A stretch of DNA of 64,000 nt from an uncultured Verrucomicrobiota bacterium. GTDB taxonomy: Bacteria > Verrucomicrobiota > Verrucomicrobiia > Chthoniobacterales > JACTMZ01. Position 1 is the first letter of the stretch. The number at the start of each line of letters is the position of its first letter. The stretch is taken from contig CAJBKE010000026.1 of assembly GCA_903953565.1 (NCBI GenBank), positions 1-64,000 on the forward strand, read 5' to 3'. The notes under the pieces were generated by a model, which searched no databases, had not been told where the DNA came from, and worked only from the letters and a program-made list of their open reading frames with translations. A program made the translations under genes and the position numbers. Below, in pieces: positions 37,106-51,942 of this stretch.

Positions 37106-38203
37106 CTAGCTCGCTCCGCCGGCCGAGTTGGCCAGCGCCGCCTCGTCTTCCGGCAAGAATGCCTTGAAGCGGTTTTTGTCGATCGCCTTCATGAAGGCCT
37201 CGTGCGGGGAGACATGACCTTGCTGGAGTTGCGCCCAGATGGCGTCGTCCATGAACTGCATGCCCTGTGCCTTCCCGCCCACGATGGCGTCCTGCAGCTT
37301 CTGTGTGGCGCCTTCGCGGATGATGGCGGCCACGGCGCTGTTGACCACGAGGATTTCGTTGACGGCAATGCGTCCGCCGCCGTCCTGACGTTTGAGCAAA
37401 AGCTGCGCAACCACGCCGCGCAACGAGGCGGCGAGCATGGTGCGAACCTGCGACTGTTGGTCGGAAGGAAAGACATCGATCATGCGGTCGACAGTCTTGC
37501 GCGCATTGTTGGTGTGCAGGGTTCCGAAAACGAGCAGGCCCGTCTCCGCCGCGGTCAGGGCGAGCGAGATTGTCTCCAGATCGCGCATCTCGCCGACCAG
37601 CACGATGTCCGAGTCTTCGCGCAGAGCCGCCTTCAGGCCTGCCGGGAAATTAACCGAGTGCTCGGGCACCTCGCGTTGGGTGATGATGCTGTTTTTGTTC
37701 GAGTGAACGAACTCGATCGGCTCTTCAACCGTCACGATATGCCGGGCGAAGTTCGTGTTGATGTAGTCCATCAGCGCGGCCAGCGTCGTGCTCTTGCCGC
37801 TGCCGGTCGGGCCCGTCACGAGGACCAAGCCGCCCCGCAGGTGTCCGAATTCCTTGATCACCGGCGGCAGACCGAGTTCGTCGAGGGTGGCAATGCGCGT
37901 CGGAATCAGCCGGAACACCGCACCGAGTCCGTGCACCTGCTTGAAATAATTGCAACGAAAGCGGTTGTCCGCGTTCATCTCGTAGGCGAAGTCGAGATCC
38001 CCTTTTTCATGGAAACGCTCCCAATTTTTCGGCGAGCAGATTTCGCTCAGCATGTAGTTCATTTCATCCGCGGTCAGCAGTTCCTCGCGGATGGGAATGA
38101 CGTCGCCATGGCGACGGATTTTCGGGGGTTGCCCCTCGGCAAGGTGCAGGTCGGATGCTCCCGCGTTGATCAGAACCTCGAAAAGTTGGTCGATGTGCGC
38201 CAT
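37106..38203 (-). CDS. pilT: PilT-type retraction ATPase
   Basis: Hexameric ATPase of the secretion-ATPase superfamily that retracts type IV pili, 365 residues. It has an N-terminal PAS-like domain ([12 protein letters not shown]), Walker A GPTGSGKS (131-138), the Asp box, Walker [18 protein letters not shown], and the His box [27 protein letters not shown]-like [14 protein letters not shown] is the retraction signature. A second, related gene lies immediately upstream on the same strand with four bases between. Confidence 0.95.
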
Positions 38204-38207
38204 GGCT

Positions 38208-39338
38208 TCAGATTATCCCGCAAAGTTGTTTCATCTGCTGCTTTTGCTCGGCACGAGAGACAGCCTCGTCTGCCGTGATCGCTCCCGCGAGGTAGAGATC
38301 GGCCAGCGAGTCGTCCATCAGTTTCATGCCGAGCTTCTTCCCGGTCTGGATGATGCCGGGGAGCATGAAGGTCTTCGCTTCGCGGATAACATTGGCCACC
38401 GCCGGGGTGTTCATCAGGATTTCAATGGCGAGAGCCCGTCCCGAGCCGTCCGTCCGCGGCACGAGTTGCTGCGAAATGATGCCGCGCAGCGACTCGCTGA
38501 CCATGATGCGGATTTGCTCGCGCTGGTCGACGGGGAAGACGTCGAGCAGGCGGTCCAGAGTGCGCGCGGCATTTCCGGTGTGCAGGGTGCCGAGGACAAG
38601 GTGACCGGTTTCGGATGCCGTGATGGCCAGCGAGATGGTTTCAAGATCGCGCATTTCGCCGACCATTATGACATCCGGATCTTCGCGCAGAGCGCCGCGC
38701 AGGGCGGCTCCGAACGACTCGGTGTGCGTGTGCACTTCGCGCTGGTTGACTTGGCAGCCGTGCGGAGTGAACAAGTATTCGATCGGATCCTCCAGCGTGA
38801 TGATGTGCTCGTGACGCGTGCGGTTCACTTCCTCCACGAGTGCGGCCAGCGTGGTGCTTTTTCCGCTGCCGACCGATCCGGTGACCAGCACGAGTCCGTT
38901 CTGGTATTGCGTGAGCATCTTGAGTTGCGGCGGCAGCCCGAGCTCGTCCATGGTCCGTACATTCGTCTGGATAATGCGGAAAACGAGATCGTAGCCCAAA
39001 CGATGCCGCACCACGCTCGTGCGGTAGCGCCCGCTTTCATTCGAGTAGGCGAAATCTACGTCACCGCGGTCCGCGAGCAGCTTTTTCTGCGCATCGTTGA
39101 GGAATCCCATGGCGAGGCGCTCGGTGTCGGTGGCGCTGAGTTTGTCCGCCTGCAGCCAGATCGGCTCCAGCGTTCCAAAGCGCCGCCAAGTCGGCTGGAC
39201 ATTGACGCTCAGATGGATGTCCGAGGCACCCGACTCTTTTCCAATGGCGAGGTATTGGTCGACGTGCGCCAGCGCGTGGACGTCGGACTGGCTCTCTTCG
39301 ACGACCTCGACGGTCTGGGTGGCGGTGGAGTCGGACAC
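38208..39338 (-). CDS. second PilT-family ATPase with altered Walker A
   Basis: A 376-residue paralogue of the downstream pilT. Domains run in the same order: N-terminal ASDIHLSVNVQPTWRRFG, ATPase core, [45 protein letters not shown], and SESLRGIISQQLVPR. Walker A is GSVGSGKS (154-161) instead of GPTGSGKS: the Pro-Thr pair is replaced by Ser-Val, while Lys160 and Ser161 are kept, so ATP binding should persist. It probably corresponds to a PilU-like accessory motor; the pair is expressed together. Confidence 0.92.
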   Translation of the reverse strand: MSDSTATQTVEVVEESQSDVHALAHVDQYLAIGKESGASDIHLSVNVQPTWRRFGTLEPIWLQADKLSATDTERLAMGFLNDAQKKLLADRGDVDFAYSNESGRYRTSVVRHRLGYDLVFRIIQTNVRTMDELGLPPQLKMLTQYQNGLVLVTGSVGSGKSTTLAALVEEVNRTRHEHIITLEDPIEYLFTPHGCQVNQREVHTHTESFGAALRGALREDPDVIMVGEMRDLETISLAITASETGHLVLGTLHTGNAARTLDRLLDVFPVDQREQIRIMVSESLRGIISQQLVPRTDGSGRALAIEILMNTPAVANVIREAKTFMLPGIIQTGKKLGMKLMDDSLADLYLAGAITADEAVSRAEQKQQMKQLCGII

Positions 39339-40405: not shown

Positions 40406-40518
40406 GATATTTCCTTTTGTTACGGGGTAGAAGGTTCGCAGATGCAGTCGGGGCTGGCAAGTGCCTGGGCATCGTTTTTCTTGAAGCGGGCGTATCATTG
40501 AAGGACAAATCCTCTTTC

Positions 40519-42408
40519 ATGACCGCCGCCGCGACCCGCCAAGCCGAACAAGTCCCGCCCGACCTCCTCCGGCGTATCGACGAAACCATCACGCATTACC
40601 CTGTTTCCAAGCGGAGCGCCTCGGTGCCGCTGCTCCACCTGTGGCAGAACTTCTTCGGCTACATCGACGAGAGCGGGGTCGACTGGATCGCCCGCAAACT
40701 CGACCTCGAGCCGATCAATATCCTCGAGTTGGTCACTTTTTACCCGTGGTTCCGCCAGACCGCGCCCGGCAAAACCACCATCCGCGTCTGCCGCACCTTG
40801 TCCTGTGCCATGGCCGGATCCCACGAGGTTCGCGAGGAATTGCTCCGCGCCGCCGGGGCGATGGACTCGCCCGACCACGGTCATGGGGTGAACAGCCCTG
40901 ACGGCAAATACACCATCGAGTTCGTCGAATGTCTGGCCAGTTGCGGAACCGCACCGGTTGCCTTGGTCGGTGACCGGCTCGTCGAAAAGCTGAAGCCTTC
41001 CGAAGCCGCGGCTGTGTTGCAGGATTCCGACCGTGCCTACCGCAAGACACTGCGCGCTCCGCACCACGCGGAAAAGCGCATGATTCTAAGGAATGTCGGA
41101 CGCGCCGACTATGATTCCTCCCTCGAATGCTACCAGCGCCACGGCGGCTACGAATCGCTGAAAAAGGCGCTCAAGATGAAGCCCGAGGAGATCGTGGCCG
41201 AAGTGAAAGCATCGAATTTGCGCGGCCGCGGCGGCGCCGGATTCCCCACGGGCGTCAAATGGAGCTTCATCAAACGCGAAGACGGCAAGCCGCATTACCT
41301 CGTGGTCAACGGCGACGAGTCGGAGCCCGGCACCTTCAAAGATCGTTACATTTTGCACGAGGATCCGCACCAATTGCTCGAGGGTATGATGATCGCCGCC
41401 TGGGCGCTCAATGTGCACCTCAGCTACATCTACATCCGCTGCGAATTCCCCGAGGCTGCCCGCATTGTCGAAAAAGCGATCGAAGAAGCAAAAGCCGCCG
41501 GCTTCATCGGAAAAAACGTCTGCGGCAGCGGCTTCGATTGTGACATCTATGTGCATCAGGGCGCCGGCGCCTACATCTGCGGCGAAGAAACGAGCCTTCT
41601 CGAATCGCTCGAGGGCAAACGTCCTTATCCGCGCATCAAACCGCCGTATTTCCCCGCTGTCTTCGGCCTCTACAACTGCCCGACCATCGTCAACAACGTC
41701 GAGTCCCTCTGCCACGTCAGGCACATCATCGCCATGGGCGCGGCCGAGTTCTCCAAGCTCGGTTCCCCCGGCGACGGCGGCACGCGCACCCTCTGTGTCA
41801 GTGGCGACGTGCAAAACCCCGGTTACTTCGAACTGGGCTGCGGTCAGGTCACCGTCGGGCAACTGATCAATGACGTCTGCGGCGGACTCAAACCCGGCCG
41901 CAAATTGAAAGCCATCATTCCCGGCGGCAGCTCGGCCAAAGTCCTGCGTGCCGGCGAGAAATACAAAATGAAGCGCAAGACCGCCGATGGCGCCGAGGAG
42001 ACGGTCGAGGTCGATCTGATGGATCTCGTGCTCGACGCCAATTCCCTTGCTGCAGCCGGTTCGATGATCGGCAGCGCGGGGGTCATGATCCTCGACGACT
42101 CGCGCGACATGCTCTGGGTGCTAAACAACATCAACGACTTTTACGCCCACGAGAGTTGCGGGCAATGCACTCCGTGCCGCGAAGGAAGCTTGTGGATGTC
42201 CAAAGTCACCACCCGCATGCTCCACGGCGACGTCAAGCCGACCGACGCGAACCAACTTGTCGGCATCGCCGACAACATTGCCGGACGCACGGTATGTGCT
42301 TTCGGTGAAGCGTGCGCCTGGCCGACCCAAAGCTTCGTGGCCAAGTTCCGCGAGGAATTTGAACCGCGCACCGCGGCTGCCAACGGCAACGGCACGAACG
42401 GCCACTGA
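40519..42408 (+). CDS. fused NuoE-NuoF subunit of complex I
   Basis: NADH dehydrogenase module of respiratory complex I as one 629-residue chain. Residues 1-~185 are NuoE: FFGYIDESGVDWIA, then the 2Fe-2S ligands Cys91, Cys96, Cys138 and Cys142. Residues ~190-629 are NuoF: SNLRGRGGAGFPTG (NADH/FMN), VNGDESEPGTFKDR, GAGAYICGEETSL (FMN), and the 4Fe-4S ligands Cys547, Cys550, Cys553 (SCGQCTPC) and Cys593. All ligands are present. ATG 40519 follows an AAGGA site. It stands alone; the other nuo genes, apart from nuoD at 52.3 kb, are outside the window. Confidence 0.95.
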   Translation: MTAAATRQAEQVPPDLLRRIDETITHYPVSKRSASVPLLHLWQNFFGYIDESGVDWIARKLDLEPINILELVTFYPWFRQTAPGKTTIRVCRTLSCAMAGSHEVREELLRAAGAMDSPDHGHGVNSPDGKYTIEFVECLASCGTAPVALVGDRLVEKLKPSEAAAVLQDSDRAYRKTLRAPHHAEKRMILRNVGRADYDSSLECYQRHGGYESLKKALKMKPEEIVAEVKASNLRGRGGAGFPTGVKWSFIKREDGKPHYLVVNGDESEPGTFKDRYILHEDPHQLLEGMMIAAWALNVHLSYIYIRCEFPEAARIVEKAIEEAKAAGFIGKNVCGSGFDCDIYVHQGAGAYICGEETSLLESLEGKRPYPRIKPPYFPAVFGLYNCPTIVNNVESLCHVRHIIAMGAAEFSKLGSPGDGGTRTLCVSGDVQNPGYFELGCGQVTVGQLINDVCGGLKPGRKLKAIIPGGSSAKVLRAGEKYKMKRKTADGAEETVEVDLMDLVLDANSLAAAGSMIGSAGVMILDDSRDMLWVLNNINDFYAHESCGQCTPCREGSLWMSKVTTRMLHGDVKPTDANQLVGIADNIAGRTVCAFGEACAWPTQSFVAKFREEFEPRTAAANGNGTNGH

Positions 42409-42416
42409 CTTTCTTT

Positions 42417-42496
42417 TAGCGGTGGCGCTGCATCCGGTGGATCGCGATGTCCCCATCGCGATTTCCCATCCACTCGCGCCGAATAGAATACGCTAC
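42417..42496. repeat. GTAGCG-family ends enclosing a partial palindromic element
   Basis: TAGCGG (42417) and CGCTAC (42491-42496) bracket nearly the whole convergent gap between nuoEF and the zinc-ribbon gene. The right end contains the latter's TAG stop on the minus strand. Copy C of the larger palindrome family is nested inside. Confidence 0.45.
42436..42480 (+). repeat. palindromic intergenic element, copy C (truncated)
   Basis: GGTGGATCGCGATG TCCC CATCGCGAT reproduces the left hairpin of copy B exactly. It is followed by a short divergent stretch ending in CTCGCGCCG. The right hairpin arm and the terminal CGCGATCCACC are missing. It sits between convergent genes. Confidence 0.7.
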
Positions 42497-43218
42497 CGCT
42501 GATATTCCGGCAGCACGTAAACAATCCGCCCGCACTGCTCGCATGACACCACGGTAGTGCCGACTTTGGCATCGCGCAGCGTTGCGGGGGTAACCGTCAT
42601 GTGGCAACCCGAGCAATGGTTGCCCTCGAGCGGAACGATGGCGCGGCCGGCTTTCGTGCGGAACAATTTTTCGTAAAGCTCGAAAAGGTCGTCGTCGGAC
42701 GCCTTGACCTCCTCGGCAACCGCATCGCGCTCGACTTTCAATTCGTCGGCGCGGCCCTGGAGCACGCCGACCTTCTCGTCGGCGATTTTCATCAGATTGG
42801 CCACGCGGTTTTTTTCCGCACTGTATTTGGCGTCCGCGGCCGCGATGACCGGCTTGAGATCCTCGAATTCCTGCATCAATTCGAGTTCGCGGTCCTCGAT
42901 CGTGTTGATGTCGCTCTGGGCCCGCTCGATCTCGTGTTTGAGCGCGGTGTATTCCTCGTTCTTGCGAGTCTCGAGCTGCTGCGTCTGGTATTTGGCGATT
43001 TGCGCGCGCTTGCCGTCCGCCTCTACCTCGAGGCGTTTGCGCTCGACCTCGATCTGCGTGGCGCGGGTCTTGTCGTTCTCGAGCGTGCGCTGCGCCGCAT
43101 CGAGTTCCTTCTGCAGGGCGGCTTTTTCCGCGGGCACGGAATTGATCTCGTGGAGAAAGGTCTGCAACCGCTGATCGCGCTCCTGCAGGAGGAGAAGTTT
43201 CTCCAGAATTTCCACCAT
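42493..43218 (-). CDS. coiled-coil zinc-ribbon protein (C4 type)
   Basis: A 241-residue protein. Residues ~10-175 are a long coiled coil rich in Glu, Lys, Leu and Ala; the C-terminus has a zinc ribbon with HCSGCHM (Cys202, Cys205) and SCEQCGRIVY (Cys226, Cys229). The block FRTKAGRAIVPLEGNHCSGCH is the hallmark of a widespread uncharacterised bacterial family, sometimes annotated as nucleic-acid-binding. It is downstream of and parallel to the vWA/ExbD operon, with 55 bases between, so it may be co-transcribed. The TAG stop lies in a GTAGCG motif. Confidence 0.88.
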   Translation of the reverse strand: MVEILEKLLLLQERDQRLQTFLHEINSVPAEKAALQKELDAAQRTLENDKTRATQIEVERKRLEVEADGKRAQIAKYQTQQLETRKNEEYTALKHEIERAQSDINTIEDRELELMQEFEDLKPVIAAADAKYSAEKNRVANLMKIADEKVGVLQGRADELKVERDAVAEEVKASDDDLFELYEKLFRTKAGRAIVPLEGNHCSGCHMTVTPATLRDAKVGTTVVSCEQCGRIVYVLPEYQR

Positions 43219-43273: not shown

Positions 43274-44350
43274 TCAGTAATCCTCGGCCTTGACCTGACG
43301 GAACTGTCCGTCGTTGCGCCGAGCCACCCCGCGCAGGGTCTTTTCCTCCTCGTCGCGGGCGGCCTTGGTCAGGAAATGGATTACGTGGATCCTCGCCGGG
43401 GTCTCCAACGGCTTCTGGGCTTCGGCAATGATCGAAAGGAGTTCACGCTCATCGATGTCGCCGCCTTTTTGCTGGTCGTCCTGCCCACCACCGCTGCGGC
43501 TCATTTCACCGTCGCTGATGAGAAAGATTGTGCTCGGACGCATGGAGAGTGCTTGTTTCATCGCGGTGTCGGTGCGGGTCCCGCCGCCTTCGTAAAGGCC
43601 TGTACCCATTTTGCTGTAGGCGCTTTTGTATGACAGTCCGCTTTTGTCGCTTCCACCCTCCACGCTTTGGATCCAAGTCTCCGCCTTCTTTTTGTTGGTG
43701 TCCGTGGCCGGCTGCATGTCAGGGAACATCGCCACCGATCCGCCCTCATAGATGATAATATTGAATAGGGTATTGATGCCGAGCCCCTGCACGAGTTTGG
43801 CCGCTTCTTCTTTCACCGCGTTGAACTTGCCCGGTTGGCGGTCGAACATGGTGTTCGAGACGTCCATGACAATGGCGACCCGCGTGGCCGTGTCAGAAAC
43901 GCCGAAGAAACTCACCGCTGATCCGCGTCCGCCGCCTCCCGATCCCGAGCCCGCTCCGGCGCCCGCACCTGCCAGCGCGGCCAACTGGTCGGAAACGATG
44001 TCGCTCGGGTCGATGGTTGCCGCGGTGTCGACGGGGAGCGAGGGCAGGTCGGGGAGGGAAAAATCGGTGGGCCGCGCGGTCGACATTTTGTCGGTGAATG
44101 AAGGCTTCGGCCGCGCCGCGTCGAATTCGGCCATGTTCATGCGGTGCTCGCGCTCCTCCGCCGCGATGCGAATTTGCTTTTTCACCTCGAAAGTCGTGGG
44201 GGTCGCGAGGATGAAGCGCGCCACGATCCAGACGCCGGCAAGAATGGCACCGATGAAATGCAGCGCGATACTGACGATGATGACGGAAATAATGATGCGC
44301 CGGCGTCGCAACCGCGCCTCCGCCTGTGGATCGAGTGTGGCCTGACTCAT
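43274..44350 (-). CDS. membrane-anchored vWA-domain protein of the ExbB/ExbD operon
   Basis: A 358-residue protein. A basic N-terminus (RLRRRR) is followed by one membrane segment (residues ~19-48), a charged and Pro-rich stretch, a Gly/Ala/Ser linker (128-144), and a von Willebrand A domain. The MIDAS residues are DVSNT (Asp163, Ser165, Thr167), GGGTRTDT (Thr258/Thr260) and LISDGE (Asp280); the family more often has Ser at the Thr167 position. The inside-to-outside charge pattern places the vWA domain in the periplasm. It follows exbD after five bases. It may be the force-receiving partner of the ExbB-ExbD motor. Confidence 0.85.
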   Translation of the reverse strand: MSQATLDPQAEARLRRRRIIISVIIVSIALHFIGAILAGVWIVARFILATPTTFEVKKQIRIAAEEREHRMNMAEFDAARPKPSFTDKMSTARPTDFSLPDLPSLPVDTAATIDPSDIVSDQLAALAGAGAGAGSGSGGGGRGSAVSFFGVSDTATRVAIVMDVSNTMFDRQPGKFNAVKEEAAKLVQGLGINTLFNIIIYEGGSVAMFPDMQPATDTNKKKAETWIQSVEGGSDKSGLSYKSAYSKMGTGLYEGGGTRTDTAMKQALSMRPSTIFLISDGEMSRSGGGQDDQQKGGDIDERELLSIIAEAQKPLETPARIHVIHFLTKAARDEEEKTLRGVARRNDGQFRQVKAEDY

Positions 44351-44355
44351 GGCGC

Positions 44356-44805
44356 CTACATGTCCTCCTCTTCCGAGCGGTCGGAAAAAGTGACCCCGGT
44401 GATGCTTGCTTTGGCGCAGGCATTGAGCACGTTGACGATCCGCTGGTGGTCGGTGCCGTCGGCCGCGTCGAGTGTGACCAGCGCCTCGGCTTTGTTGGCG
44501 TCGGCCGATTCCTTGAACCGCTTCAAAGTGGCGACCAGGCCCTGCAGTTCGGCGTCACCCGGTTCGCCGAGCGTCGAGTCGTTGAGCACCACGCGTCCGT
44601 CGTCCTCAATGCGGATGCGCTGTTCGTCGGGCAGATCGACGCTTTCCTCCGCGGCAACCGTGCCGGGCAATCCGAGGCTGATGTCGCTCTCCTGTTTGAT
44701 CGGCTTGGCCGTGACCATGAAAAAGACGAGGAGAAGGAAGACCATGTCGATCATCGGTCCCATCTGCATCTCAACGATCTGGGTGTCGCGGCGTCGGATT
44801 TTCAC
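44356..44805 (-). CDS. ExbD/TolR-family transporter subunit (second copy)
   Basis: A 149-residue protein with a short cytosolic start (MKIRRRDTQIVEMQMG), one membrane helix with the proton-carrying Asp20 (PMIDMVFLLLVFFMV), and a periplasmic domain containing VDLPDEQRIRIEDDG and ALVTLDAADGTDHQRIV. It is longer than the upstream ExbD and differs in the periplasmic part, so the two may form a mixed dimer in the ExbB ring. Three bases separate the two genes. Confidence 0.92.
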   Translation of the reverse strand: MKIRRRDTQIVEMQMGPMIDMVFLLLVFFMVTAKPIKQESDISLGLPGTVAAEESVDLPDEQRIRIEDDGRVVLNDSTLGEPGDAELQGLVATLKRFKESADANKAEALVTLDAADGTDHQRIVNVLNACAKASITGVTFSDRSEEEDM

Positions 44806-44808
44806 GGC

Positions 44809-45216
44809 TCAGGATTGATAGCTTCCGAAGATAACATCCACCGCGCCGGCATCGGCGGCCATTTTCATGATTTCTTTGATTTTTTTGGCCGATGTTTTCT
44901 GATCGGCACGGATGTAAAGGCGAAGCGGCGGGGTGTTCTCGAAGCGTTTTTTGAGGTATTCGGCCAGGCGTTTTTTGTCGGCGATTTCCTGTCCGATGAA
45001 ATAGCGGCCCTGCGCGTCGATACTGATGATGTCGCGGTTGCTCACGTCCTCGGGGATCAAGGCATTGCTCGCCACGGGCAGCTTCACTTCCTCTTTGATC
45101 TGCTCCTTGGAGATCTTGGTCGTGACCATAAAGAAGATGAGCAGGAGGAAAGTCATGTCGATCATCGGCGCGAGCTGGAAACCCATCTCGTCATCGGGCC
45201 GGCGTGTGATCTTCAT
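44809..45216 (-). CDS. ExbD/TolR-family transporter subunit (first copy)
   Basis: A 135-residue protein: MKITRRPDDEMGFQLA, one membrane helix with Asp20 (PMIDMTFLLLIFFMV), and a periplasmic domain with LPVASNALIPEDVSNRDIISID and RLYIRADQKTSAKKIKEIM, ending DVIFGSYQ. This is the classic ExbD layout. It lies between the ExbB-type gene (25 bases) and the second ExbD. ExbD proteins work as dimers inside an ExbB pentamer, using the proton-motive force to drive periplasmic partners. Confidence 0.93.
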   Translation of the reverse strand: MKITRRPDDEMGFQLAPMIDMTFLLLIFFMVTTKISKEQIKEEVKLPVASNALIPEDVSNRDIISIDAQGRYFIGQEIADKKRLAEYLKKRFENTPPLRLYIRADQKTSAKKIKEIMKMAADAGAVDVIFGSYQS

Positions 45217-45241
45217 GGCTCTATCCCGGTGGCAACACGGA

Positions 45242-46048
45242 TCATTCTGCGGCTTCTTCCGGAGGCAGCTCGTGCGAATGCACCGCCCCTTCCAGCTTCA
45301 GTTCGCCGGAGAGAACGTCGATCATGAAAGTAACCGATTTCTGGATGTTGCCGATCGCCACCTGCAGAAGGTTCCGGAAGTAGAAAAAGAGAAACATCGC
45401 CGGAATGCCGACGAACAAGCCGCCTGCCGTGGTGATCATGGCCTCGCCGATACCGCCCGCCAGATCCGAAGGTTCGCTGCGACCGGCCGCGAGTTGGTCG
45501 AAGCTCGCGATCATGCCGGTCACGGTGCCGAGCAGTCCGAGCATCGGTCCGATCGTGGCGAAGATATTGAGGTAGTTGATCCAGATCATGAGCCGCTGTT
45601 CCTCCTGCATGAGTGTTTCGCCGGCGGCCTGTTCCATCGACGCCTTGTTCGCCAGGTCGCGGTCGAAATTCACCTTGAGCAAAGCCGCGCACATCGTGTT
45701 GGCGAAAACGTTCGGCGAACTTTGGCAGAGTTGGTAAGCCGCATTCGGGTCGCGGTGCTGCATGTATTGCGACACGGCCGTTTCCTGCGCCTTGGGCATC
45801 ATTTTTTTCTGGTTGATCTGCAGGAAGCAGTAGACGCCGACGGCGATGGTTCCGATCGAACAGAGCAGGATCGGCCACATGAGCGCACCACCGGCGAGAA
45901 AGAGATCGAGCAGGCTTTTCTCGATCACAGCCGGTGGCGGCAGCGCGGCGGGCGAGGGTGTGGCCTCCTGCGCTGTGGCGATGACGACGGTCAGGACGAA
46001 GAGCGCGGCCGCGAAGGTTGATATTTTGGCGTGTGGGGATGTTTTCAT
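45242..46048 (-). CDS. MotA/TolQ/ExbB proton-channel protein
   Basis: A 268-residue membrane protein with a cleavable or anchoring N-terminal segment (residues ~9-26, AAALFVLTVVIATA), then three membrane helices (about 50-75, 155-180 and 195-217). The diagnostic block is LNIFATIGPMLGLLGTVTGMIASF, followed by GGIGEAMITTAGGLFVGIPAMFLF. Its start overlaps the upstream TPR gene (ATGA). With two ExbD genes downstream it forms a complete energised channel. No TonB, TolA or TolB gene is present, so its client is probably in the same operon. Confidence 0.93.
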   Translation of the reverse strand: MKTSPHAKISTFAAALFVLTVVIATAQEATPSPAALPPPAVIEKSLLDLFLAGGALMWPILLCSIGTIAVGVYCFLQINQKKMMPKAQETAVSQYMQHRDPNAAYQLCQSSPNVFANTMCAALLKVNFDRDLANKASMEQAAGETLMQEEQRLMIWINYLNIFATIGPMLGLLGTVTGMIASFDQLAAGRSEPSDLAGGIGEAMITTAGGLFVGIPAMFLFFYFRNLLQVAIGNIQKSVTFMIDVLSGELKLEGAVHSHELPPEEAAE

Positions 46049-46944
46049 GATTTTTCGGTTTTCTTCTTGAGAAATTCGGCGGCTTTTTTCGCTTCCGGGG
46101 AATCGGAGTATATCTCCGTGAGGTCGGTGGCAACCTTGCGCGCCTCATCCTCGTCTCCGGTGAATTGATAAAGTTCCAGCAGGATACCCAGTCCCTTGGC
46201 CGCCTGCCCGCGCGCCGTCCCGTGGAAAAGGAAGGGGTAAAGTGCGTTGTCCGCCGTCTCGTGAAGCAAGCGCAAGCGCTCCGCGCGCACCGGCGGGTCC
46301 TCGTGCCAGCGCGGATTGTCAGCGACCAGCGTTTGCATCGCGGCGAGCCGGGCGCTGGCGATGAGAAGTTTGGAATCAAGCAGTAGGTCGGGATCCTGTG
46401 CCGAGGTGGCAAGTTGCTCGATTTCCGCGGCGACTTCCTGCGAGCGGCCGAGGTCGATCATGGTGCGGAGTCGTCCGCGCTTTGCATCCTCGCGGTCGGC
46501 CGGATTCCACGCGCCCTGTTCGACTTCGGCGTAAACCCCGAGGGCTTCCTCGAGCCGGGCACTCTCTCCGGTCAGTCGCAGGCATTCGCCGTAAAGATTG
46601 CCCGCGTCGCCCGCCCGCGATTCGGGGATGGCCAGCATGGGTTGCAAGGTTTGCCAGCGGACCCGCGCCGTGTTCAGTGCGCCGCGACCGGGATTGGCGC
46701 GGACCGCTTCGAGCGTCTGGTCGGGCGCGAAAATGATGCGCTCCACATTGGCGCGCGGGATCGAGGTCGTGCCCGCGCTTTGCCCCGGCACCGGCCCGGG
46801 CAAGGAAAGACGGAACGATGTTTCGTCCATGCCGACGATGCGGCCCTTGCGCGTGTTGCCGTCCTTCAGCCGCACCTCGTCGTCGGCCACCAGCGAAGGC
46901 GCGGCGGCGAGGAGAAAAAGCATGATGCAGAAACGCGTTTTCAT
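46045..46944 (-). CDS. secreted helical-repeat protein with N-terminal DG-motif domain
   Basis: A 299-residue protein with a signal peptide (~1-20, FCIMLFLLAAAPSLVA), then a small beta-rich domain (DEVRLKDGNTRKGRIVG ... IPRANVERIIFAP) followed by TPR-like helices. The N-terminal domain parallels that of the secreted protein at 27106. Four-base overlaps join it to the 938-residue TPR gene upstream and the ExbB gene downstream, so the three are made together. It is probably periplasmic and a likely partner of the ExbB-ExbD motor. Confidence 0.8.
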   Translation of the reverse strand: MKTRFCIMLFLLAAAPSLVADDEVRLKDGNTRKGRIVGMDETSFRLSLPGPVPGQSAGTTSIPRANVERIIFAPDQTLEAVRANPGRGALNTARVRWQTLQPMLAIPESRAGDAGNLYGECLRLTGESARLEEALGVYAEVEQGAWNPADREDAKRGRLRTMIDLGRSQEVAAEIEQLATSAQDPDLLLDSKLLIASARLAAMQTLVADNPRWHEDPPVRAERLRLLHETADNALYPFLFHGTARGQAAKGLGILLELYQFTGDEDEARKVATDLTEIYSDSPEAKKAAEFLKKKTEKS

Positions 46945-49757
46945 GACGGGCCGGTGGAACCCGACGGCGGACCCAGCTTCTGCAATCGCTCCCGCGCCGT
47001 CTGCGCCTCCGGGAGGGCGGCGAGGTCTTCGCTTTTGCTCAGTTCCTCGTAGGTTTTGCGTGCGGCTTCGAGGTCGTTGATTTTTTCGAAGGCCTCACCG
47101 CTGCGCAGATAAGCTTTGGCCACCGTCTCGCGCCATTTCCCGTAGAGAATGTAGATGCGCTGATAGTAGGGGATGGCGGTCTGCGGACGGTCTCGCGCCA
47201 TTTCGAGTTCGCCCAAGGCGAGAAGCGCCTGAGCTTTGAGTTTTCCCGGAACGCTTTCCGCGGCGAGCAACCGGGTGTACGCCTCCGCGGACCCATCCGT
47301 GTTGCCCGCCTCGCTCTCGATGAGCGCCCGTGTCATAAGCACCTCGCCCATCAGCGTGGACCACGGTGTGTCGCGCTCGAGACGGGTGTAATAGTCGAGC
47401 GCTGCCTGACGGTCTCCGTCCTCCATGGCCATGCGCCCGAGCGCGGCCAGAGCTTTGTCTTTCTGCGCCGCGCGCGGATGCCACTTGAGCAAGTCGCGGT
47501 AGATCTGAGCCGCTTTTTCGCGTCGCCCTGCGGATTCTTCATCACCCGCCGTGGCCCCCGCCAACTGCGCCTCGGCGCCGTCCGCGAGGATGAGGGGATT
47601 GGTCGTTTCGGCCTTGGCCAAGGCTGAAGCCTCGCGGAATAAGGCCGACGAAAGCTCCGGGTCGGATTTCTTCACCGCCTGCCCCAGAGCCCAAATCGAC
47701 CGGACCGTGAGCGTCTCCTGCTTTTCCGCCTCCGCCTTGGCGCGCAGTTCACGCAGGGCGGCGAGGTGGTCGTGCTTCTCCGTATCACTTTTATGGAGCC
47801 GTCCGAGCGCGATGAACAAATCCTCGACCGAATCGGCTTCCGGATCGTTGCCGAAATCTCCGATCGCTCTCCAATACTCCGCAATGGCTTTGTCCGGTTG
47901 GTCGTCTTGCCGCCACGACTGGCCGATGAGGAAAAGCGCTTCGGCGGCGCGTGGACTCCGGGGATAAGCCTCGAGATACTTGCCCATGAGGTCGCGCAGC
48001 CCTTCGTAGTCTTCCTCCAGCTTGAGCACCTTGGCCAATTTGAACTGTGCATCTTCGTGGAAGTGCCCCGCTTCGGCCGGAACCCCTGCGTAGACCTCTT
48101 TGCCCTCGTCGGACTTGGCTTGGGCCAGCAGTGCATCGCCGAGCAGAAGGCGGGCTTCGTTGCTTTCCTGCGCATCCGGATATGCGGCGAGATACGCTTC
48201 GAGTTCCGCCTCCGCCGTTGCGTAGTCCTTCATCGACTGCGCGCAATAGGCCTGACGGAAGCTGGCCGCTCCGAGCAGCGTGCCTTTGGGAAATTTCTTC
48301 GCGTGCGCGCCCAGCACCTCGCGCGCTTCGGGTAATTTTTTGGCAAAAGCCAAAGCCGAGCCGCGCCAGTAGTTCGCCGGCTCCGCCAGTTCGTGGTCCG
48401 GATGCTTTTCGCCGAACTTCGCCAAAGTGGCGGCCGCCTCCTCGTTGCGTTCGGCGAGGAGCTGCGTGAAGCCTTCCATGAAAAAAGCGCGCGGGGCCTG
48501 CTCGGATTGGGGGAATTTCTCGCGCAGAGCGGCAAACGTCGCGATCGCTTCGTCGAATTGGTCGGCGCGTTGCTGCGCTGTGCCGCGCAGGTAGAGAACG
48601 AGGGGCAATTGCTTGGACTGGGGGAAATTTTTCTCGAAGAGCAGCGATGTTTCCACCGTCTTGTCGTTGCGTTCGATGGCCAGCCAGCTCTGCAGCGCGC
48701 TGAGCGAAGCCGTTTCCACCGCCGCATCCGGTTTCATTTGCCGGAGCATGTCGTCGAGCAGCAGCGCGCATTCGCGGTAGCGTTCCTGTCGGTGGAATGC
48801 GCTGGCCATGCGGAATCGCACCGACGCATCGAAACCCTGCGCTTTCTGCAGGTTCTGCAATTCCTTCTCGATCTCCCGCGCGATCTGGCGCATCTGGGCG
48901 CGCTCGAACACATCGGGAGTTGCGTCTGCTTCGATCGCCTCGAGACGCTTTTTGACCTCCTCAAGACGGCGTTGCTGCTGCTCAACCAGCCGCTCTTGCG
49001 TCGAGATGGTTTGCATCACCCGGATGGCCTCGCGCGGCCTGTCTTGCTCGAGAAGTCTCTCGCCGAGTTGCATAGCCAGCGCCTGAAAGGTGGCCAACTG
49101 CGTGATGCGGTCCTGCCGAGCGGCCTCCGTTGTGACCAACTCGAGCGCCGCTTCGTCGTTGCCCGTTTCGATCAGGCTGTGCAATTCGAGGACTGCGGCG
49201 CGGCCGCTGTGGACGCTTTGCGGATTTTTGCGGATCGCTGCAAGCGCTGTGGCCGCATCCTTCTTGTTACCTTCGGTCACGAGCAGGGTGGCCGCGAGCA
49301 ACGCGGCATCTTCCCGCCGGCGCGAGCGCGGAAAATTTTCCATGAATTGGCCGAGCGCCTCCCGCGCCTTCACCGTATCGCCGGTCTGCATCAGGCTAAC
49401 TCCGAGCCAGAACGAAAGATTCTCCTGCTTGTCGGGGGTGATCTCGGGGAGTTTTTGTGCTTCCTCGATCGCTTCTGCAGCACCGCCGAACTTCTGCGTC
49501 TGCATCAATGCGGCAACAAGATTATAGCGCACATGCGGCAAGAGAGGCTTGGCCTCTCCGGAAGCTCCGAAATCACCGAGGAACTTCTGATAGCCGGCCA
49601 CAGCCTCGTCGTAGCGCTTCTCGTTGTAGGCCTTGTCGGCCTTGATGATCACATCGCGTGCCGTGCCGACCTCGGGAGCCGACGGCTCAGTCTGCGCGCT
49701 CAGCGGTCCCATCGAGGCCAGCGATAGAAATAACAAGATGGGCAATTTCGAGCTCAC
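46941..49757 (-). CDS. large secreted TPR protein heading the ExbB/ExbD operon
   Basis: A 938-residue protein with a signal peptide (~1-22, LPILLFLSLASMGPLSAQ), composed almost entirely of TPR-like helical repeats from residue ~30 to the end. Examples are AYNEKRYDEAVAGYQKFLGDF, FDEAIATFAALREKFPQ, DYATAEAELEAYLAAYPDA and PDKAIAEYWRAIGDF. These resemble the YbgF/BamD/Tol-associated TPR class. A coiled-coil stretch lies near residues 250-310. It is first in the operon and overlaps the next gene by four bases. Its size suggests a periplasmic scaffold. Confidence 0.88.
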   Translation of the reverse strand: MSSKLPILLFLSLASMGPLSAQTEPSAPEVGTARDVIIKADKAYNEKRYDEAVAGYQKFLGDFGASGEAKPLLPHVRYNLVAALMQTQKFGGAAEAIEEAQKLPEITPDKQENLSFWLGVSLMQTGDTVKAREALGQFMENFPRSRRREDAALLAATLLVTEGNKKDAATALAAIRKNPQSVHSGRAAVLELHSLIETGNDEAALELVTTEAARQDRITQLATFQALAMQLGERLLEQDRPREAIRVMQTISTQERLVEQQQRRLEEVKKRLEAIEADATPDVFERAQMRQIAREIEKELQNLQKAQGFDASVRFRMASAFHRQERYRECALLLDDMLRQMKPDAAVETASLSALQSWLAIERNDKTVETSLLFEKNFPQSKQLPLVLYLRGTAQQRADQFDEAIATFAALREKFPQSEQAPRAFFMEGFTQLLAERNEEAAATLAKFGEKHPDHELAEPANYWRGSALAFAKKLPEAREVLGAHAKKFPKGTLLGAASFRQAYCAQSMKDYATAEAELEAYLAAYPDAQESNEARLLLGDALLAQAKSDEGKEVYAGVPAEAGHFHEDAQFKLAKVLKLEEDYEGLRDLMGKYLEAYPRSPRAAEALFLIGQSWRQDDQPDKAIAEYWRAIGDFGNDPEADSVEDLFIALGRLHKSDTEKHDHLAALRELRAKAEAEKQETLTVRSIWALGQAVKKSDPELSSALFREASALAKAETTNPLILADGAEAQLAGATAGDEESAGRREKAAQIYRDLLKWHPRAAQKDKALAALGRMAMEDGDRQAALDYYTRLERDTPWSTLMGEVLMTRALIESEAGNTDGSAEAYTRLLAAESVPGKLKAQALLALGELEMARDRPQTAIPYYQRIYILYGKWRETVAKAYLRSGEAFEKINDLEAARKTYEELSKSEDLAALPEAQTARERLQKLGPPSGSTGPS

Positions 49758-49834
49758 CGCGACAAATCTGCCCCGCCGCCCTCCTCAGGTCAAAATGTCG
49801 TTTGCCGGCGTGCGGGAACTGGCAGGATGGATGC

Positions 49835-50845
49835 ATGCAAACCGGCGAAATCGAGTCTCTGGAGAAGGATGCTTGCCGAGTGGTCAGAGGCGAGGGGGAT
49901 GAGAACTTGGGCGACCTGCTCCTGCGGTTGCATGCGTATCAATTCCGTAACAATGCGCCTTACCGCGCGTTTTGCCTGAGCGTGGCAGTTGGGGAAATGC
50001 CGGATGATTGGCGGCAAATTCCCTGCCTTCCCCAAGAAGCTTTCAAACACGCCGACCTGCGCAGCTTTCCCGCGGAACAAACCAGGAAAATATTCCGCAC
50101 CAGCGGGACGACAGGCGAGGGATACGGACAACACCATTTCCGCACGCTCGAGGTTTACGAGGCGGCGGTGCGCGAAGGGTGGCGTCAGGCCGGACTTCCT
50201 TCCTCGCCTTATCTCGTCATTGCACCGCATCCGGACGAAGCCCCGCATTCCTCGCTGAGCCACATGCTCGGCATGCTCGCGCCGCGCGAGAATTTTATCG
50301 CGCCGGGCGGTGAGATCGATCTGCAGCGGTTGCAATCCGTCGAGGAGCCGGTTTGCCTGCTTGGCACGGCGCTCGGGTTCCTCCATTTGTTCGAGCGGAT
50401 GAATCAACGCGGGCTCTCGCTCGCTTTGCCCCCCGGATCGAGTGCCATGGAAACCGGCGGATACAAAGGCAGCGGACGCCATATTTCGCGGGGCGACCTA
50501 TACGCGCTGTTTGGCGACAAGCTCGGCATCCGTCCGGATGACATTTACAACGAATATGGAATGACCGAGCTCAGTTCGCAATTTTACGCCCGTGGGCCGC
50601 AAGGTTTGCACTACGGTCCGTCTTGGGCTCGGGCGATCGTGGCCGATCCGGTCACGCTCGCGGAGGTCGAGGACGGCGAAACAGGCATCCTGCTCATTTA
50701 TGACGCGGCCAATGTCGGATCAGTTGTCGGCATCCGCACGCGCGATTTGGCCGTCAAGCGCGGCGAGGCTTTCGAATTGCTCGGACGCGATCCTGCTGCT
50801 TTGCCGCGCGGATGCTCCCGCGCCGCTGACGAATGGTTGCGATGA
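49835..50845 (+). CDS. LuxE-like acyl-protein synthetase
   Basis: Adenylate-forming enzyme related to LuxE, which activates a fatty acid with ATP and passes it to LuxC. The 336-residue protein has the nucleotide loop KIFRTSGTTGEGYG (core 87-94), GALAPHPDE-like VIAPHPDEAPHSSLSHML, GSSAMETGGYKGSGR, and NEYGMTELSSQFYARG near the C-terminus, all matching LuxE/PaaK-type motifs. The stop overlaps the LuxC-like start (ATGA). No luxA or luxB is present, so light production is not implied. Fatty aldehyde or a derived lipid is the likely product. It is divergent from the TPR/ExbB operon. Confidence 0.88.
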   Translation: MQTGEIESLEKDACRVVRGEGDENLGDLLLRLHAYQFRNNAPYRAFCLSVAVGEMPDDWRQIPCLPQEAFKHADLRSFPAEQTRKIFRTSGTTGEGYGQHHFRTLEVYEAAVREGWRQAGLPSSPYLVIAPHPDEAPHSSLSHMLGMLAPRENFIAPGGEIDLQRLQSVEEPVCLLGTALGFLHLFERMNQRGLSLALPPGSSAMETGGYKGSGRHISRGDLYALFGDKLGIRPDDIYNEYGMTELSSQFYARGPQGLHYGPSWARAIVADPVTLAEVEDGETGILLIYDAANVGSVVGIRTRDLAVKRGEAFELLGRDPAALPRGCSRAADEWLR

Positions 50846-51942
50846 ACACCGCTCAACGCGCCACCGCCATCGCCAAAGCCGCGGAGCCTTTCCGCGCGCT
50901 CCTCGGTCCAACCACGGCGGCTGATTTGCTGGCCTGGCTGCGAGCCGAGTTGGGAAGCAGTGAAGTGCTCGACCGCTGGATCGATCACGGCATGGCAAAA
51001 ACCAAGGCCGTCGCACCCGGGACAATCCTTCACGTGGTGAGCGGCAACACGCCGCACGCGGCACTGCAGAGCATCATCGGCGGACTACTTCTCGGCAGCC
51101 GCAATCTGGTCAAACTGCCGCGCGGTGGACTGATCGAATTGGATGAATTTGTCTCCGGGCTGCCGGATACTTTGCGCGCCACGGTCGAAATGGCGGAAGT
51201 ATTGCCCTCCGCATGGTTCGCGTTGGCTGGAGCACTGATCGTTTACGGCTCGGATGAAACCACCGCGCATTTCCGCACGCTTGTTTCGCCTTCGCAGGTC
51301 TTTGTCGGCCACGGACACAAGGCGAGTCTGGGGATCATTTGGGACGATCCCAAGTTTGCCTCCTGCGACCCTGCGGCGCGGGATGCATCGCTTTTTGACC
51401 AGCAGGGATGTCTTTCCCCACAGGTCTTTTATGTGCGCGAGTCGCGTCCGGGATTCGCCCGCGCTTACGCGGAAAAACTTTCCTCGGCCATGGACCGTTT
51501 CAATCGCTCGCATCCTCGCGGGTCGATCACCGTTGCCGAGCAGGCGGAGATAGCTAACCTTCGTGCGGCTTACCGTTTCCGCGCCGCGGGGGATTTGCGG
51601 GTGGCGCTGTGGGAAGGTGGGGGAAACATGGACTGGACAGTGGTCTATGAGGAGGACGCATGGTTTCCCGCATCGACGCTCAACCGCGTGATTTTCGTCA
51701 AACCGCTCCCCGAAGATCCTGCCGCATCGATTGGTCCAGCCGCCGCGCATGTCGGCGCAGTCGGACTTTTTCCCTGCACGGAGGAACTGGCCGAGCGCTT
51801 CGCTTCACTGTGTCCATCGCGCTTTTGTCTGCTCGGACGCATGCAAGATCCGCCGTGGACCTGGCACAATGGCGGCGTGGCGCGATTGGTTTCTTTGGTC
51901 AAGTGGGTTGATTTCGAGCCGCCCAGCGGTTTGACTGCCTGA
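50842..51942 (+). CDS. LuxC-like acyl-CoA/acyl-protein reductase
   Basis: NADPH-dependent reductase of the LuxC (aldehyde-dehydrogenase-like) family, 366 residues. Features are [26 protein letters not shown] (NADPH site), [12 protein letters not shown], and the nucleophile region [13 protein letters not shown] (Cys190), which corresponds to the acyl-accepting Cys of LuxC. It is shorter than Vibrio LuxC (~480 residues), missing N-terminal sequence. Coupled to the LuxE-like gene, it would reduce the activated acyl chain to an aldehyde. infA begins four bases after its stop. Confidence 0.88.

Follow-up and report, generated by a model that had tools for sequence, protein, structure and literature searches.

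TonB and TolA contact ExbB and TolQ, respectively, through a transmembrane (TM) Ser-His pair of which the His is essential (PMC12215075). In 2025, vWA force transducers (Tichowtungia family) were reported from bacteria of the Planctomycetes-Verrucomicrobia-Chlamydiae group in Molecular Biology and Evolution (PMC12204202); AlphaFold 3 models place them side-bound to the motor, their function was stated as unknown, and gliding was put forward as a possible role. Here we analyse a 64,000-nucleotide stretch (the window; contig CAJBKE010000026.1) from an uncultured member of the Chthoniobacterales, Verrucomicrobiota, in which a minus-strand run of six open reading frames (ORFs; 43274-49757) encodes a TPR protein, a protein that we call P5, ExbB, ExbD1, ExbD2 and a vWA transducer with a TM helix. 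Judged by its features and description, this operon belongs to the published vWA transducer family, with two exceptions: only the Ser and His of the SHLS motif are present, and no motor-box strand is seen in the model. Our comparisons further suggest that the published vWA transducers are very probably one branch of a larger family, in which a single motor-coupling anchor, consisting of the TM His and an EHRM...LPxLPxxP linker, is encoded with a TPR/P5/ExbB/ExbD/ExbD cassette, while the periplasmic head has been repeatedly exchanged among at least three kinds of domain (vWA, PA14 and squalene-cyclase-type toroid).

The transducer gene (43274-44350, minus strand) encodes 358 residues comprising an RRRR motif, a TM helix containing S27 and H31, a Gly/Pro-rich disordered linker (residues 48-142) and a vWA head (144-354). 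It shows the features of the published family: an N-terminal TM helix, a disordered linker, a C-terminal vWA domain and a conserved TM His predicted to bind the motor. Its AlphaFold model (mean predicted local distance difference test score, pLDDT, 71.6) consists of a helix at 8-47, disorder at 48-142 and a vWA fold at 144-354, and Foldseek matched it to vWA structures with E values down to 1.8e-9; inter-alpha-inhibitor heavy chains and BatB (3ibs, 1.8e-7) were among the top matches of the head. Pfam gave only a sub-threshold VWA_2 match (3.2e-5) and no TonB C-terminal domain. The protein is predicted to be oriented N-in/C-out, with its head in the periplasm, because RRRR precedes the TM helix (positive-inside rule); a SAM domain is N-terminal in both homologues at locus L149, as expected if the N-terminus is cytosolic.

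The anchor and linker module (44006-44326, minus strand), with TM His31 and the EHRM...LPxLPxxP linker as its signature, is common to vWA-, PA14- and toroid-headed proteins, as indicated by an alignment (A6), a phylum-wide search and a tree. At L149, two adjacent transducer genes close a motor operon, and their products share 126 identical residues from the TM helix through the linker, beyond which one carries a vWA head (VWA_2, 28.4 bits) and the other a PA14 head (24.7 bits), both scores passing the respective cut-offs. Of the nine PA14-like heads in alignment A3, seven matched the PA14 family of Pfam (E up to 1; best 1e-4), with scores that, where shown, fell short of the curated cut-off, and the PDB matches of such heads are mainly PA14 domains of yeast adhesins (E 0.03-0.6). 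The third head, which emerged from a search with the anchor only, is an alpha/alpha toroid of the squalene-hopene-cyclase type (28.8 bits in L224, cut-off 26.1); toroid-headed proteins are encoded inside the operon at L210 and L224, and outside it at L211, L216, L217 and L218. The tree of the anchor region contains at least seven changes of head type, with its starred branches forcing six changes of the vWA label, although it rests on only 109 columns and leaves many forks open, which makes the exact count uncertain. A vWA domain, which a preliminary description of this DNA counted, together with the TPR proteins, as the effector, is thus not an obligatory head. PA14 heads receive no mention in the main text of PMC12204202, and no PA14 or toroid heads together with ExbD were found in the literature searched.

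Anchor proteins are particularly numerous in one genus, g84 (L205-L209, L212, L220), with up to 16 per genome, mostly with a PA14 head where read; some carry a C-terminal SHD1 domain (L209, 1.1e-6). The g84 PA14-headed transducers often adjoin, as judged by eye, genes resembling those for sulfatases, GH2 enzymes, (acetyl)esterases and LacI regulators.

All six ORFs were found as previously described, with overlaps of 4 and 4 bases and gaps of 25, 3 and 5 bases between neighbours, that is, never more than 25 bases. Counting a locus whenever a large TPR gene, ExbB and ExbD sit upstream of a transducer, the TPR-motor-transducer operon occurs in 49 loci, including the window, from about 25 families of Verrucomicrobiota (taken as family codes), and we therefore rejected a chance gene cluster. 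The named close relatives of the window are metagenome-assembled genomes (MAGs) of Chthoniobacterales, and the order TPR-P5-ExbB-ExbD1-ExbD2-vWA is kept in relatives of the same taxonomic order, with vWA identities down to 28%; a profile of the vWA protein matched in 82 of 289 genomes sampled across the phylum. The expectation that ExbB, two ExbD, TM-vWA and TPR genes stay together in relatives was thus borne out. The same description held that a conserved order would define a new system; the order is indeed conserved, but the vWA-transducer operon had already been published in 2025 (PMC12204202). One genus includes three genomes (L048, L050, L052) in which the TPR, P5 and vWA genes are still adjacent but have lost the three motor genes that would lie among them; TPR, P5 and vWA therefore behave as a unit. 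One of these genomes, G029, carries another copy of the motor operon (L071). Separately, the window's own genome contains a second operon with P5-like, ExbB, ExbD and ExbD genes (L076; C59, 6740-9382), with no transducer gene beside it.

The motor proteins retain the residues expected of a proton path. ExbB (45242-46048, minus strand) is a channel subunit of the ExbB/TolQ type with an N-terminal signal peptide or extension (PF01618, 1.4e-25); its best solved relatives are TolQ proteins (5e-9), and T175, T207 and P216 are invariant in all 58 homologues. ExbD1 (44809-45216) and ExbD2 (44356-44805), both also on the minus strand, match PF02472 at 1.3e-20 and 1.9e-20, respectively, and the membrane Asp20, correctly assigned to both earlier, is invariant (56/56 for ExbD1 and 59/59 for ExbD2). 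ExbB S64 is a candidate partner of the transducer His, with an uncertain alignment register relative to TolQ S28.

The TM helix of the transducer contains a Ser27-x3-His31 pair, within 'SIALH' in the window as compared with 'SVCIH' in TonB, and the His is invariant in close relatives (21/21 and 23/23). Across 91 transducers, a set that includes some duplicate MAG copies, 80 have His here and 11 have Gln. All 63 motor-adjacent transducers have His, whereas the motor-less ones comprise 17 with His and 11 with Gln; none of these 11 has a motor or TPR gene as a neighbour, and the tree, which includes 10 of them, places those in a single clade. Retention of His with the motor, and its replacement by Gln in a motor-less clade, fits motor coupling; this pattern did not turn up in the literature searched. 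The orphan vWA proteins with Gln at this position are those of L134-L143 and L146, some of which adjoin an acyltransferase-like gene.

Several observations weigh against this coupling. Since the Gln proteins make up essentially a single clade, few independent events lie behind the association of His with the motor. Only the Ser and His of the SHLS motif are present, the places of Leu and Ser being taken by A38 and I42, and the AlphaFold model contains no motor-box strand after the TM helix, although confidence there is low (pLDDT 50-56). Furthermore, there are motor-less vWA, PA14 and toroid proteins, such that the heads also occur without an adjacent motor. In Ton systems, the last two SHLS residues are less conserved (PMC12215075). 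F54 is invariant in alignment A5.

The metal ion-dependent adhesion site (MIDAS) of the window's vWA head is nearly complete (D163-x-S165-x-T167, a Thr loop and D280), as had been noted. The weight given to it does not extend to the family: within the main clade, 15 of 21 vWA proteins have other residues in place of the Thr loop, indicating that metal-dependent binding is not the conserved function. MIDAS-dependent adhesion was rejected as a conserved function on the same grounds.

The TPR protein (46941-49757, minus strand; 938 aa, GTG start) has a type I signal peptide and repeats of the CpoB/YbgF and BamD/YfiO types, matching TPR_6 of Pfam at 7e-31; its CpoB/YbgF-type repeats score above the TIGR02795 cut-off, its BatC match is weak, and relatives have a homologue in the same position. 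P5 (46045-46944, minus strand; 299 aa) has a signal peptide, and its AlphaFold model (mean pLDDT 87.6) shows a small five-stranded, Sm/Hfq-like barrel (residues 22-71) and an alpha solenoid (76-293). Foldseek matches were weak, with the solenoid resembling SprE of the type 9 secretion translocon (0.016), PilF, LapB and BamD, and the barrel resembling Hfq. In readable loci, the TPR and ExbB genes flank a gene whose product has a signal peptide, a short beta-like stretch and one more region, including at loci where the P5 profile fails. P5 is a regular sixth component of the operon, not found in the literature searched, and is probably a scaffold or adaptor.

These results led us to consider the operon as a putative proton-motive-force transducer similar to TonB/TolA. 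ExbB would form the channel ring, which by comparison with ExbB/TolQ is presumably pentameric, and ExbD1 and ExbD2, each with a proton-carrying Asp, would probably form a heterodimer inside it. The TM helix of the vWA protein (S27/H31) would bind the side of the ring, the Gly/Pro-rich linker would span the periplasm, and the head would grip a partner that proton flow pulls or releases. Most likely, the vWA protein is pulled by the ExbB ring and its pair of ExbD subunits, much as TonB and TolA are pulled by their motors. The secreted TPR protein and P5 would be the likely scaffold engaged by the head, on the periplasmic or outer-membrane side; the chances are about even that the head grips the TPR protein, P5 or both, since TPR, P5 and vWA genes are co-retained. 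The head would act as an exchangeable binding domain, vWA in the window and PA14 or an alpha/alpha toroid in relatives. The preliminary description had proposed a dedicated proton-driven device for envelope work, with the vWA and TPR proteins in the place of TonB, TolA, TolB and Pal. The idea of a trans-envelope device in which the membrane-anchored vWA protein replaces TonB/TolA gains support from the phylum-wide gene order, from the invariance of the proton-path residues and from the Ser-x3-His that the anchor shares with TonB and TolA.

The reported lack of TonB, TolA, TolB and Pal holds for the operon but not for the whole genome, a 2.86 Mb draft. Elsewhere, TonB-like proteins are encoded next to other ExbB/ExbD genes on C67 (PF03544, 8e-8) and C15 (9.8e-4), and there are two OmpA-like domains. 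Conversely, no plug domain of TonB-dependent receptors was found in this genome at E 0.001 (draft 95.7% complete).

Divergent from the TPR gene lies a LuxE-like acyl-protein synthetase gene (49826-50845, plus strand). Of 24 loci tested, in several families of the order, 13 have such a gene next to the TPR gene, L048, L050 and L057 among them; it is a conserved neighbour that we do not claim as a component. In the window it is followed by a LuxC-like reductase gene (together 49826-51942, plus strand), a follower found in the window's genus. A gene for a CdsZ-like coiled-coil zinc-ribbon protein (42493-43218, minus strand), 55 bases downstream of the vWA gene, occupies that place only in the window's own genus. 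Further away, and as judged by eye, a single 663-aa ORF resembles a NuoE-NuoF fusion (40417-42408, plus strand), and two PilT/PilU-like ATPase genes lie side by side (37106-39338, minus strand).

We infer that the cellular role is to energise an outer-membrane or surface process, which may be assembly at the outer membrane or surface, the uptake of large polymers, or adhesion/gliding. Two more specific proposals address this role, and both can hold alongside the transducer mechanism. One is the uptake or surface handling of polysaccharides, the operon being a TonB analogue for bacteria without TonB-dependent receptors and the heads carbohydrate-directed adaptors. PA14 is often a glycan-binding domain, the window's genome yielded no plug-domain receptor, and the sulfatase-, GH2-, acetylesterase- and LacI-like genes beside the g84 PA14 transducers (16 anchor matches, several genomes) point in the same direction; however, polysaccharide degraders carry many such genes in any case, the neighbours in the window (nuo, pilT, LuxE/LuxC-like) are of other kinds, and vWA and toroid heads are not carbohydrate-specific, making this role rather unlikely. 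The other is a machine for gliding or surface adhesion, akin to Agl-Glt. The Agl-Glt machinery of Myxococcus has one TolQ-like and two TolR-like proteins (AglRQS), with TPR and vWA partners among the Glt proteins, and it is matched by the 1 ExbB : 2 ExbD ratio and the TPR/vWA partners of the operon. Here the motor would push an assembly of periplasmic TPR and vWA proteins that contacts the surface. The PA14 heads resemble yeast adhesin domains, and a gliding role has been suggested as possible (PMC12204202). Nevertheless, no Glt/Agl outer-membrane or FHA/GYF components were seen in the operon or its flanks, and the vWA protein is a transducer anchored in the inner membrane instead of an outer-membrane adhesin; we regard this machine as improbable.

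A different mechanism altogether would be an envelope system of the Bat type, with BatA/BatB-like vWA and BatC-like TPR proteins and the ExbB/ExbD genes as a separate unit. BatA and BatB have two flanking TM helices, whereas the window's vWA protein has one, N-terminal. The Foldseek match to BatB and the weak BatC match of the TPR protein would agree with such a system, but the MoxR ATPase and DUF58 genes are absent alongside, in 49 loci the motor genes and the transducer gene belong to one operon, and the TM His goes with the motor, all of which renders it hardly credible. A Bat operon was also rejected on gene content, the flanking ORFs being CdsZ-like zinc-ribbon, LuxE-like and LuxC-like.

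If the head-exchange reading is correct, head swapping has turned one kind of envelope motor to different targets, and one genus has seen large expansions of PA14-headed forms; the swapping of heads on a constant motor-coupling anchor is a feature that we found absent from the literature searched. The L149 pair, with identical anchors and different heads, and the His-to-Gln motor-less clade offer handles on the action of the motor and the targets of the heads. Our results support the idea that ExbB/ExbD-type motors drive more than TonB and TolA.

The system can thus be set against those already known. It shares with BatA/BatB/BatC a membrane vWA protein and a TPR protein, with BatB a close structural match of the head, but it has ExbB/ExbD and a single TM helix, without MoxR/DUF58 alongside. 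As in Agl-Glt, there is one TolQ-like and two TolR-like motor proteins, although the vWA protein is here an inner-membrane transducer, and no Glt barrels, GltG/GltJ or MglA were seen in the operon, to which that comparison was confined, the genome not having been searched. With Tol-Pal (TolQ-TolR-TolA-TolB-Pal-CpoB) it has in common that TolQ is the closest solved relative of ExbB and that the TPR protein contains CpoB/YbgF-type repeats, whereas the operon lacks the TolA C-terminal domain, TolB and Pal. Its ExbB/ExbD motor residues and the Ser-x3-His in the TM helix are those of Ton systems, from which it differs in that a vWA head replaces the TonB C-terminal domain, ExbD is encoded twice, the TPR protein and P5 are partners and no receptor plug was found in the genome. 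A second published vWA type, with an Asp-bearing transpore helix and no ExbD, was ruled out, since the window has two ExbD, a TM His and no TM Asp. The closest likeness is to the Tichowtungia vWA family, also from Verrucomicrobia, in which the transducer likewise follows a TPR gene, a tolQ-like gene and two different tolR-like genes; the differences are the P5 gene, unmentioned in the available part of that publication (PMC12204202), and the existence of relatives of the window's transducer with PA14 or toroid heads.

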